Origin: Rubritalea marina DSM 17716
Lineage (GTDB): Bacteria; Verrucomicrobiota; Verrucomicrobiia; Verrucomicrobiales; Akkermansiaceae
DNA: 64,000 nt
Assembly: GCF_000378105.1 (NCBI RefSeq)
Contig: NZ_KB899247.1
Span: 62,001 to 126,000, forward strand
Direction of reading: 5' to 3'
Shown here one piece after another: positions 53,183 to 55,853 of this stretch (position 1 is the first letter of the stretch; the number at the start of each line of letters is the position of its first letter). A program made the translations under genes and the position numbers. The notes under the pieces are model-generated. The model did no database searches, was not told where the DNA came from, and saw nothing but the letters and a program-made list of their open reading frames with translations.

Positions 53183-53755
53183 TTAACCACGGGTGACTTT
53201 GGTGACTTTTCCATCTTTGACGTGGAAGTTGAGTCGATCTGGTCGGAGGTCGAGTGTCATGGGGCGTGGTTTGCCATCGACTTCGATGACTCGGCAACGA
53301 AGCTCATGTTTCTTGCTGAGTGCTTGAGCATCTTCGATGCTGAGTCCGATGAAGTCAGTGTCGTTTGGTTTTGCTTTGGATTGATGCACGAGGGTGGCGC
53401 CTTTGATGATCTCTGGAATTTGGGATTCGGTGATGACGGTGTAGCCTTCGCTGTCCTCCCAAGTTTGGCCGTAGACGTAGAGTTTGCGTGGGAGTTTGAG
53501 CAATTCCTGGGGAAGCTCGATTTGGTCAATGGCTTTGCCGACGATGCCAGCAGAGTTGCTGGTGTCGTTTGGTTGGGAGGTTTTGGCAATGAGGATGAGG
53601 GCATTTGCGGACTGGTACACTTCGATGATTTCTAGCTGCCAAATTGGGGCGGGTGTGGCGATTTCAATACTCAATGGTTTGAGTGTTGGGTTTTCATTGG
53701 CAAGTAATGGAGTACTTAAGCAAGTGAGGCCGAGAAGTGGTAGTAGGAGTTTCAT
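53183..53755 (-). CDS. Secreted protein with I78-inhibitor-like C-terminal domain
   Basis: A 190-residue exported protein. A signal peptide (LLLPLLGLTCLSTPLLANE) leads to a beta-rich domain of unknown family (about 25-130, with YGQTWEDSEGYTVI). The last 55 residues read like peptidase-inhibitor I78 family proteins: GLSIEDAQALSKKH, then RCRVIEVDGKPRPM and the characteristic RPDRLNFHVKDGKVTKVTRG end. Starting ATG is 53755 (TTG at 53761 is less likely). Whether it inhibits a peptidase is unknown. Confidence 0.65.
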   Translation of the reverse strand: MKLLLPLLGLTCLSTPLLANENPTLKPLSIEIATPAPIWQLEIIEVYQSANALILIAKTSQPNDTSNSAGIVGKAIDQIELPQELLKLPRKLYVYGQTWEDSEGYTVITESQIPEIIKGATLVHQSKAKPNDTDFIGLSIEDAQALSKKHELRCRVIEVDGKPRPMTLDLRPDRLNFHVKDGKVTKVTRG

Positions 53756-53828
53756 AATCAAAGAGCGCTACGCTGCGCATTTTTTGTTTACGAGAAGACT
53801 AATCCAAGGGGGCTATAGTCGAGGGAAG

Positions 53829-53859: not shown

Positions 53860-53944
53860 TGGTGCGCACGAGAGGAGTCGAACCTCCACGCCCTAGGGCA
53901 CTGCCGCCTGAAGACAGCGCGTCTACCAATTCCGCCACGTGCGC
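53860..53944 (-). tRNA. tRNA-Leu (CAG)
   Basis: Reading the minus strand: a 7-bp acceptor stem (GCGCACG with CGTGCGC), D-arm with GGTAGAC, anticodon stem CTGTC/GGCAG around the loop TTCAGGC, a long variable arm (TGCCCTAGGGCG) typical of leucine tRNA, and TPsiC arm GGAGGTTCGACTCC. The anticodon CAG is at 53908-53910 (plus strand shows CTG). The genome encodes CCA at 53860-53862. Length with CCA is 85 nt. Confidence 0.97.
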
Positions 53945-54069
53945 ACTTAGAAGTGGTGGGCGCAGCTTAGGTAAGGAGAGGATGGATGATCAAGAGTAAA
54001 AAATGCGAGACCATTTGAGAGGTCTCGCAAGTCTTTGTTGGCGAATGGATGAGCTCAGGTGCTGAATCC

Positions 54070-55749
54070 TTAGCGGTGGGTCAGGTGTACCTGCTGTGGG
54101 TGCAATTCGCTTTGGCCGTCCGGTGAGTTGATGACGACTTGGAGTATGTTGCGCCCTTTGATGAGGGGGATGCCGGTGAAGTGGACGTGGTCAGTGGAGG
54201 TGTCGATGACTTGGGTGTAGCTGGCATCGCGCAGGCTGAGAGTGGCTACCCATGACTTGAGGTCTGTGCCTTCGTGAGGCGGCAGGTCGAAGCTGATATC
54301 GACTCTGCTGGGGTGCTCGGCCTGGAGTTTCCAAAATCCGTCGGATGAGCTGGTGTTGCTAATGCGGGTGTCTGCCATCAGGATGAGCGGGTTTTCCTGA
54401 GGGCGGCTCACGAGGATAGGGGAAATGCCGCGATCGCGGATGCGGGTGTCGGCGACGTCGAGGAACCAAGCGTCGTAGAGGTCGAGGAGTTGTTTGACCT
54501 GGTCTTTATTCTCGCTTGCTAGGTTTTTGGATTCGGATGGATCGGTGCTGAGATTATAGAGTTCGTAGTTGCTGCTATTGCGTCGTGATTGTGATGGGTC
54601 ACTTGGGTTGAGCAGCTTCCATGGACCTTTGCGCAGCATGAAGTGATGGCGGCTGGCTACGGTGGCACCGAGGTGGTGTTGCTGAACGATGATTCGATCT
54701 AGTTCAATGGGGACGGCGGAGTTGATGGCGCCGATCAAGGATTGACCATCAAGTGCGAAGGCATCGAGGCTGCCGAACTGGCAGAATTCGAGGATCGTGG
54801 GTAGGATGTCGATCTGGGCACTGACGGTCTCGATTTGCTTGGGGCTGCGGCTCGATTGAGGTGGCTGGGGCAGCATGATCCAGAGTGGTGCGCGAACGCC
54901 GGCTTCGTATACGGAACCCTGGGTGCCGCGAAGCTCTGACTGACTGTCGGCATTGCTCAGACTGCGGGTCGTGGTGAAGACGATGACGGTGTTGGAGGTC
55001 ATCTTGAGCTCGTCGAGCTTTGCAAAGATGACTGAAAGGCTGCGGTCGAGCCCGCTGAGAAGCTGCTGCCTTGCTGGTGCTTGAGCTTCAGGGTCCACTG
55101 GGGTGTGGATGTTGAGGCTGAGGAAAAATGGGTAGTCGAGCTGATGGGTGCTCTCGATGAAGGACGCTGCCTGGGTCGTTAGGTGGTGTGGGGCATCGTC
55201 TCCAAGGGTGGCTTCAGCATTGTTGCGGAAGCCAAAGCTGAGATTCTCCGAGCCAGGAGCTTGAGAGTGCGGTGGGATGAAGTCGTTATATTGCACCAAG
55301 CTCTCGGTGTAGCCTTGATCTTTTGGTCGCATCGGGAAGTTGTTGCCGAGCCACCAGGTGCCAAAAAATCCAGACTTGTAGTCGGTGCCGGTAAAGATCT
55401 CTGCGATGGTGACTTCGTCACCGGCCATCATCGCACGGCCGTAGCCGTAGTCTACGGTCTTGGTGCGGATGTTGTAGCGGCCGGTGTGGATGGAGGCTTG
55501 GTTGAGTGGGACTGCTGGAGCGATGTAGTGGTTGAGGAATTGGTGGCTTTGTGAATGCAGCCGTGAGAGGTGTTGGAATGGCGAGAGAGTCTCTGCCGCA
55601 AAGGCGTCATGCCCCAATTGGTCACTGGTGATAAGAATCACATTGGGTGGTGTGGGTTCCTCGATGAGGACAGCATCCTCGGCGCTGGCTGGTGTGATCC
55701 AAGCGATGCTGATGCTGAGGACTGCGGCGATGTGGTTTCTACGGAGCAT
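54070..55749 (-). CDS. Exported sulfatase-family protein with lost catalytic residues (pseudoenzyme)
   Basis: A 559-residue exported protein of the type I sulfatase (alkaline phosphatase superfamily) fold. The ATG at 55749 begins a signal peptide (RNHIAAVLSISIAWITPASA); the upstream frame runs across a terminator. In place of the family's CxPSR signature the aligned region reads APAVPLNQASIHTGRY: C becomes V80 and R becomes Q84. The usual FTSDNG metal site is FTTTRS (T261, R262) and the LRGGKG lysine is Q277. Fold elements such as SVYEAGVRAPLWI remain. It should be inactive as a sulfatase. The C-terminal 70 residues form an extra beta domain. Gene codons look normal, so the protein is kept intact. 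Confidence 0.85.
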   Translation of the reverse strand: MLRRNHIAAVLSISIAWITPASAEDAVLIEEPTPPNVILITSDQLGHDAFAAETLSPFQHLSRLHSQSHQFLNHYIAPAVPLNQASIHTGRYNIRTKTVDYGYGRAMMAGDEVTIAEIFTGTDYKSGFFGTWWLGNNFPMRPKDQGYTESLVQYNDFIPPHSQAPGSENLSFGFRNNAEATLGDDAPHHLTTQAASFIESTHQLDYPFFLSLNIHTPVDPEAQAPARQQLLSGLDRSLSVIFAKLDELKMTSNTVIVFTTTRSLSNADSQSELRGTQGSVYEAGVRAPLWIMLPQPPQSSRSPKQIETVSAQIDILPTILEFCQFGSLDAFALDGQSLIGAINSAVPIELDRIIVQQHHLGATVASRHHFMLRKGPWKLLNPSDPSQSRRNSSNYELYNLSTDPSESKNLASENKDQVKQLLDLYDAWFLDVADTRIRDRGISPILVSRPQENPLILMADTRISNTSSSDGFWKLQAEHPSRVDISFDLPPHEGTDLKSWVATLSLRDASYTQVIDTSTDHVHFTGIPLIKGRNILQVVINSPDGQSELHPQQVHLTHR

Positions 55750-55812: not shown

Positions 55813-55853
55813 AAAAAAACGCTGCATGTGCGTGTAGTTCATGCAGCGTTTTT
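55813..55853 (-). terminator. Bidirectional intrinsic terminator, ending sdhB
   Basis: A perfect 14-bp stem (55815-55828 with 55840-55853), 11-nt loop, with A run on one side (55813-55819) and T run on the other (55849-55853), so it can act in both directions. It lies 25 bp beyond the sdhB stop and upstream of the sulfatase-like gene. Confidence 0.9.

Follow-up and report, generated by a model that had tools for sequence, protein, structure and literature searches.

The closest precedent for the gene reported here is the periplasmic domain of PbgA / YejM (LapC), a sulfatase-fold domain that lacks the Cys/Ser and for which, in the sections of the structural study drawn on here, neither activity nor bound metal was found (PMC4973235). 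At the places that correspond to sulfatase active-site residues the same sections give D268, G269, T302, G450 and R451, and they describe the absence of the helices and loops that gate the active site of sulfatases (PMC4973235). A later paper, as excerpted, describes YejM as a metalloenzyme (PMC7576196). Within the S1 family, the relevant section of the SulfAtlas paper lists as sequences that "may be inactive" nine from Lentisphaerae and Planctomycetes, with Leu or Ile for the catalytic Arg (PMC5066984). A dead sulfatase fold is already known, and S1 sulfatases lacking the catalytic Arg have been noted before. In the literature searched, outside which most subscription journals fall, no bacterial S1 pseudosulfatase was evident from a title or the start of an abstract, and the literature on inactive sulfatases gave no near-complete erasure in a secreted S1 sulfatase that has an intact orthologue at the same locus. 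Sulfatase genes number in the dozens to hundreds in some aquatic bacteria and are usually tallied as degradative capacity; a maintained member that cannot cut would mean that sulfatase counts are not all enzymes.

The window, by which we mean the whole 64,000-nucleotide stretch of Rubritalea marina DSM 17716 DNA that was analysed, contains such a candidate, P0001. Its coding strand is the minus strand: read from 55749 to 54070, the DNA translates to 559 amino acids and a single terminal stop, and the plus-strand frame over 54070-55749 is not open, with many stops. An earlier, sequence-only reading had recognized a real gene in this interval and had stated no strand. The ATG at 55749 is the favoured start because a signal peptide comes right after it, and a strong hairpin with T7 at 55813-55848, just 3' of sdhB, overlaps the first possible start of a 590-codon version of the frame, which also favours the later start. 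The signal peptide was identified by eye from the sequence.

54070..55749, minus strand: candidate pseudosulfatase gene P0001, 559 codons plus stop (translation, PF00884)
55681..55749, minus strand: putative signal peptide, residues 1-23 (MLRRNH-IAAVLSISIAWI-TPASA), by-eye reading, helix 5-17 in the model
54760..55650, minus strand: sulfatase core, residues 34-330 (PF00884, predicted model, structure matches)
55618..55623, minus strand: D43-Q44, the first metal Asp and a Gln where the second was (alignment with intact relatives)
55498..55512, minus strand: V80-P-L-N-Q84 in place of CxPTR, the formylglycine site (alignment with intact relatives)
55351..55359, minus strand: T131-W-W133 in place of K-W-H (alignment with intact relatives)
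55048..55122, minus strand: shortened loop, residues 210-234, with V218 at the place of the catalytic His (alignment, loop lengths)
54964..54969, minus strand: T261-R262 where the metal ligands D-N were; the Asn position has Arg here and Lys in G032 (alignment)
54919..54921, minus strand: Q277 in place of the active-site Lys (alignment with intact relatives)
54439..54759, minus strand: C-terminal subdomain, residues 331-437, the best-kept part (identity and invariant-residue counts)
54073..54438, minus strand: predicted C-terminal beta-sandwich, residues 438-559, weakly CBM35/CBM6-like (domain model, structure search)
54004..54029, minus strand: terminator-like hairpin and T run, 3' of P0001
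55813..55848, minus strand: hairpin with T7 between sdhB and P0001, by-eye reading
53860..53944, minus strand: tRNA-Leu (CAG), directly 3' of P0001 and likewise 3' of the intact orthologue in G066

The sulfatase architecture of P0001 is recognizable by several routes. PF00884 (Sulfatase) is recognized over residues 35-321 with a score of 50.5 bits, where the cut-off is 25, SGSH_C (PF16347) scores slightly over its cut-off, and solved S1 sulfatase structures match by sequence in 39 distinct chain sequences at E<=0.001 (best 1.4e-20). The AlphaFold2 model (pLDDT 87.4, pTM 0.89) was built from 66 sequences, P0001 and 65 relatives from named contigs, which are ordinary sulfatases and bias the model toward the sulfatase fold; its lowest confidence falls at residues 159-165, near the former GGGxGQP motif. 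An alignment for P0001 gave 80 named relatives at 25-32% identity, none of them close. The nearest solved folds are S1_19/S1_16 carrageenan sulfatases (6psm/6prm, PsS1_19B; 6b0j/6bia, an iota-carrageenan sulfatase; 9fo1) at Z 39-40, with 6b0j (Z 40.4, 3.0 A over 395) and 6psm and 6prm (40.1) as the top VIA-align matches. PsS1_19B has a maturable Cys and a calcium ion, according to the part of PMC6923384 cited here, whereas P0001 keeps one of the ten canonical positions. By sequence, P0001 matches 6psm at 1e-18 and the intact G066 protein matches 6bia at 4e-58. On the evidence of the model, the sulfatase (alkaline-phosphatase superfamily) fold is kept in P0001.

The active site within this fold has been almost completely erased. 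We compared ten aligned positions, which we take to be the catalytic and metal residues of S1 sulfatases, with nine intact relatives: eight proteins from seven other genomes of the genus (G066, G058, G050, G041, G080 twice, G022 and G009) and one from G052, of another genus in the same family. Portions of PMC5066984 and PMC4973235 supplied part of the residue assignment. All ten residues (D, D, C, R, K, H, H, D, N, K) are invariant across the nine relatives, and P0001 has D43, Q44, V80, Q84, T131, W133, V218, T261, R262 and Q277 in their places, leaving nine replaced and D43 as the sole survivor; phmmer against 6psm, using gaps, aligns H215 with the His of that enzyme and gives a lower bound of eight lost. 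There is no Cys or Ser at the CxPxR site (V80-P-L-N-Q84), the metal ligands D, D, D, N read D43, Q44, T261 and R262, and R, K, H, H and K, the residues for sulfate binding and acid function, are replaced by Q84, T131, W133, V218 and Q277, with H215 as a possible displaced His. Also gone are the GGGxGQP, YT and GYCTD motifs of the family. Between an FF pair and the next conserved Asp lie 25 residues in P0001, 29 in a second degenerate protein of the genus (in genome G032) and 48-57 in ten intact relatives.

This loss is greater than chance. Of 166 columns invariant in the nine intact relatives P0001 retains 94, and retention is 1/10 at catalytic positions against 93/156 at the others (Fisher P 0.0026). 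P0001 is also the weakest of the PF00884 proteins above cut-off in its own genome, the next scoring 90.5 bits. Alignment with the intact relatives reproduced the V-P-L-N-Q at 80-84, the FTTTRS and the Q277 that the sequence-only reading had picked out, and added Q44, T131, W133 and V218, which it had overlooked; its picture of an erased active site in a sulfatase fold, over 559 codons and behind a signal peptide, is borne out by the PF00884 match, the alignment and the model. From these residues, P0001 would be unable to be matured or to hydrolyse sulfate esters.

The likeness to PbgA, judged by alignment and by reading, extends to the metal site. Like PbgA, as described in the sections cited (PMC4973235), P0001 keeps the first Asp (D268 in PbgA), has lost the second (G269) and carries a cation at the Asn metal position (R451). 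Whereas PbgA sits in the inner membrane of proteobacteria, P0001 is a secreted S1-type derivative with no predicted membrane anchor beyond its signal peptide, and the YejM family model scores it at 19.2 bits, far below the cut-off of 825. The SulfAtlas group, in the section that describes it, loses the Arg (PMC5066984); P0001 shares the suspected inactivity. Unlike PbgA/YejM, P0001 has an intact gene in a sister species.

That gene, in G066, retains all ten canonical residues and lies in the same orientation directly beside tRNA-Leu(CAG), as at the P0001 locus. Two genes that read from their sequence as a response regulator and a sensor kinase (72% and 70% identity) are found on one and the same side of the gene in each genome, some 7 kb off in G066 and 11 kb off in the window. 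A SecA tree places the genome of P0001 (G000) and G066 as sisters (100/100), with G032 apart, and the gene tree computed without G032 makes P0001 and G066 neighbours at 100/98; this grouping and the tRNA-Leu beside both genes indicate that P0001 descends from a sulfatase with an intact active site. Because the intact sister gene stands at the same tRNA-Leu, catalysis was lost in the lineage of P0001, unless there was a hidden duplication. Branch lengths, in changes per column, are 2.3-4.4 for P0001 over three trees and 0.28-0.5 for G066, but 0.16 and 0.13 for the two genomes in SecA, so the increase in rate is specific to the gene. The P0001/G066 pair, dead versus intact at one locus, makes the transition directly testable.

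The G032 protein (L062:8685-10388, minus strand) is a second dead relative, 34% identical to P0001. At the ten places it has D, G, S, R, S, Q, E, D, K and R, the second His place being a gap in two other alignments; its SAPSR retains the Arg and has Ser at the Cys position, which could in principle be a Ser-type formylglycine site, and the Lys, both His, the second Asp, the Asn and the last Lys are lost. Like P0001 it has an open frame, carries a cationic residue where the metal-binding Asn was and has its loop shortened. The G032 copy adjoins a ThuA-domain gene and lies near a YkuD gene, with no tRNA-Leu beside it.

Both proteins are rare exceptions. Among 221 non-redundant relatives, 147 score at least 400 bits against a family profile that includes both dead proteins, and 143 of these carry all ten canonical residues, counting Ser as allowed for Cys and Gln or His for Asn. 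Two more, L026 (a partial frame) and L043, have gaps at one or more of these places but no substitution, which leaves P0001 and the G032 protein as the only degenerate members at that score. The 74 relatives below 400 bits are aligned less securely; 46 of them keep the complete set, and the others have fewer or are gapped. A profile of the two dead proteins was run over 386 genomes of the order, and the top candidates of each genome (three among those listed) were scored. The pair itself scored 1122 and 1083 bits and the next protein, the intact one of G066, 494 bits, so that among these candidates no third dead member came near the two. P0001 alone as query gave no close homologues in the genome contigs.

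Gene trees pair P0001 with the G032 protein weakly (82/57 in one, 63/50 in another), and topology tests reject neither P0001 with G066 (p 0.438) nor G032 with G066 (p 0.104). Where both dead copies differ from all nine intact relatives they have the same residue in 24 of 130 columns, with 8.7 expected by composition; comparable counts with the intact protein are 16/82 for P0001 and G066 and 17/81 for G032 and G066, so this excess gives no clear sign that the dead copies form a pair. The sisterhood of the two genomes in SecA, together with the shared tRNA-Leu, favours two separate losses, though there may have been a hidden duplication or transfer of a dead copy. It is tempting to see here one secreted sulfatase of the genus turned into a metal-free binder, perhaps twice independently and by the same route, in which the formylglycine site would be erased, the gate loop trimmed and a cation placed at the calcium-ligand Asn, as in the unrelated PbgA. 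We regard this only as a tentative and rather doubtful extension of our results; if true, sulfatases would have a route to binding proteins that can be taken more than once, and the intact sister gene beside the same tRNA would serve as its control.

What P0001 does instead is a separate question from whether it cuts. That it is non-catalytic and selected at the protein level is very probable. Our best explanation goes further, to a secreted pseudosulfatase under continuing selection that acts as an extracytoplasmic binder through its C-terminal half, and we give this fuller account about an even chance. Computation shows that P0001 has lost its formylglycine residue, almost every metal ligand, the residues that bind sulfate and a large part of the substrate (gate) loop, while the reading frame, the predicted fold and the C-terminal half are retained. 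Without maturation there would be no hydrolysis of sulfate esters, and a cationic side chain (R262; Lys in G032) would fill the calcium site, facing or pairing with the kept D43. The protein would then act by binding, most likely to carbohydrate or to a partner outside the cytoplasm, and would touch its ligand with residues 331-437 (the C-terminal subdomain) and 438-559 (the CBM-like sandwich), away from the pocket that once held sulfate.

The weak part of this explanation is the binding and where it takes place. Identity between P0001 and G066 is 36% in residues 34-225, where G066 and three other intact relatives share 62-71%, and 55% in residues 331-437, where the same intact pairs share 40-50%; P0001 retains 20/24 invariant residues in the C-subdomain against 45/87 in the N-core (P 0.005), and in the G032 protein the same bias is not significant (16/24 against 48/87, P 0.36). 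Modelled alone, the C-terminal domain (130 residues, pLDDT 86.0) finds CBM35/CBM6-bearing chains weakly in Foldseek (4e-4 to 1.8e-3; 6ueh 4.0e-4, CBM35 2w87 7.0e-4). VIA-align gives Z 7-9.1, mixed with unrelated sandwiches and with Cry-toxin and enterotoxin domains scoring alike, and Z 7-9 is the band that the tool calls a possibly common arrangement. Both dead copies have lost W459 and W465, two tryptophans that all nine intact relatives share. Binding through the C-terminal half is possible.

The preserved C-subdomain would also fit a prozyme-like, non-catalytic partner that forms mixed dimers with an active sulfatase of the same cell and modulates or localises it. Potential partners abound, with 35 other PF00884 proteins above cut-off in the genome, most with recognisable active-site motifs, and an S1_19 sulfatase is dimeric in crystal and solution, according to the section of PMC6923384 cited here. 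No intact copy of the P0001 family was found in either G000 or G032, however, where the next matches are 26% identical to P0001 in its own genome and 27% for the second match in G032. No neighbour gene is common to the loci of the two dead copies, so none is suggested as a partner, and we consider the prozyme reading unlikely.

If P0001 were instead an unneeded relic, drifting with stops yet to appear, its long branch, the intact gene in the closest species and the low identity of its active-site half would all be understandable. The coding sequence itself argues otherwise. There are zero stops across the 559 codons, whereas 300 neutral simulations run to nine lost catalytic residues gave a mean of 19 stops and a minimum of 7, and runs to 50% identity gave a mean of 12 and a minimum of five; these start from the G066 gene as ancestor stand-in and ignore indels, which would make decay more visible. 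GC at codon positions 1/2/3 is normal (0.586, 0.425, 0.695), as is codon usage: the RSCU of P0001 correlates with that of eight neighbouring genes at 0.907, against 0.36 and 0.22 for the other two forward frames. Compared with the G066 gene, P0001 differs by 0.494, 0.407 and 0.637 at the three codon positions. The dead copy in G032 likewise has an open frame, and invariant columns kept by both number 74 where 55 are expected (P 1e-9), the pattern expected if the fold is under selection. With no stops, normal codon usage and 94/166 invariant positions kept, P0001 does not look like recent decay, and the chance that it is a relic is slim. The sequence-only reading had proposed that orthologues retaining the residues would mark this copy as recently decayed; all nine intact relatives do retain them, but the recent decay does not follow, with P0001 free of stops and a second dead relative in G032.

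The same reading favoured a sulfated-glycan receptor that uses the old sulfatase pocket. A sulfatase-rich genome, a kept fold and a signal peptide speak for this, but the pocket is not what was preserved: the sulfate-binding Arg, Lys, His, His and Lys are replaced, GGGxGQP, YT and GYCTD are lost and the loop that follows the catalytic His is shortened, which makes such a receptor improbable. The broader claim of a fold-retaining pseudoenzyme in a sulfatase-rich genome is supported by the model and its Z of 40, by the intact frame and by the PF00884 count given below. Acquisition of a different catalytic activity by the scaffold would suit fast, gene-specific evolution with the frame kept, but no newly conserved residues are apparent (both dead copies depart from 49 invariant columns, and in 3 of these they have the same new residue, with 2.5 expected), and we think it very improbable. 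An assembly or alignment error is hardly credible, for although a single assembly of the species was used, the frame is intact on a 311 kb contig beside the same tRNA-Leu as in G066, the alignment is full-length and the motifs are lost at separate places.

As to expression, a promoter match exceeding chance was not found for P0001. The hairpin at 55813..55848 suggests that P0001 is transcribed separately from sdhB, and hairpins flanking it on both sides argue for a single-gene transcription unit. Between ilvC and the tRNA-Leu, at 53186-53761 on the minus strand of the window, lies a 192-aa secreted-looking protein in which no Pfam family was found.

The genome holds 36 PF00884 proteins over cut-off, P0001 included, and four matches to PF03781, the formylglycine-generating-enzyme-like family, so that active sulfatases are expected in this organism. 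Three other sulfatase-like proteins, separate from P0001, namely L220, L221 and L225 (G000:C7:63371-64201, C6:66534-67415 and C3:132104-133018), read CCPSL, CCPSL and CRPSL and have a changed KWH; with Leu for the catalytic Arg, they resemble in sequence the suspected-inactive group of SulfAtlas. A further gene, L240 (G000:C13:48000-51500), encodes a membrane protein that carries a PF00884 domain; a pattern search found no CxPxR site in it, and it may be akin to lipoteichoic-acid synthases.
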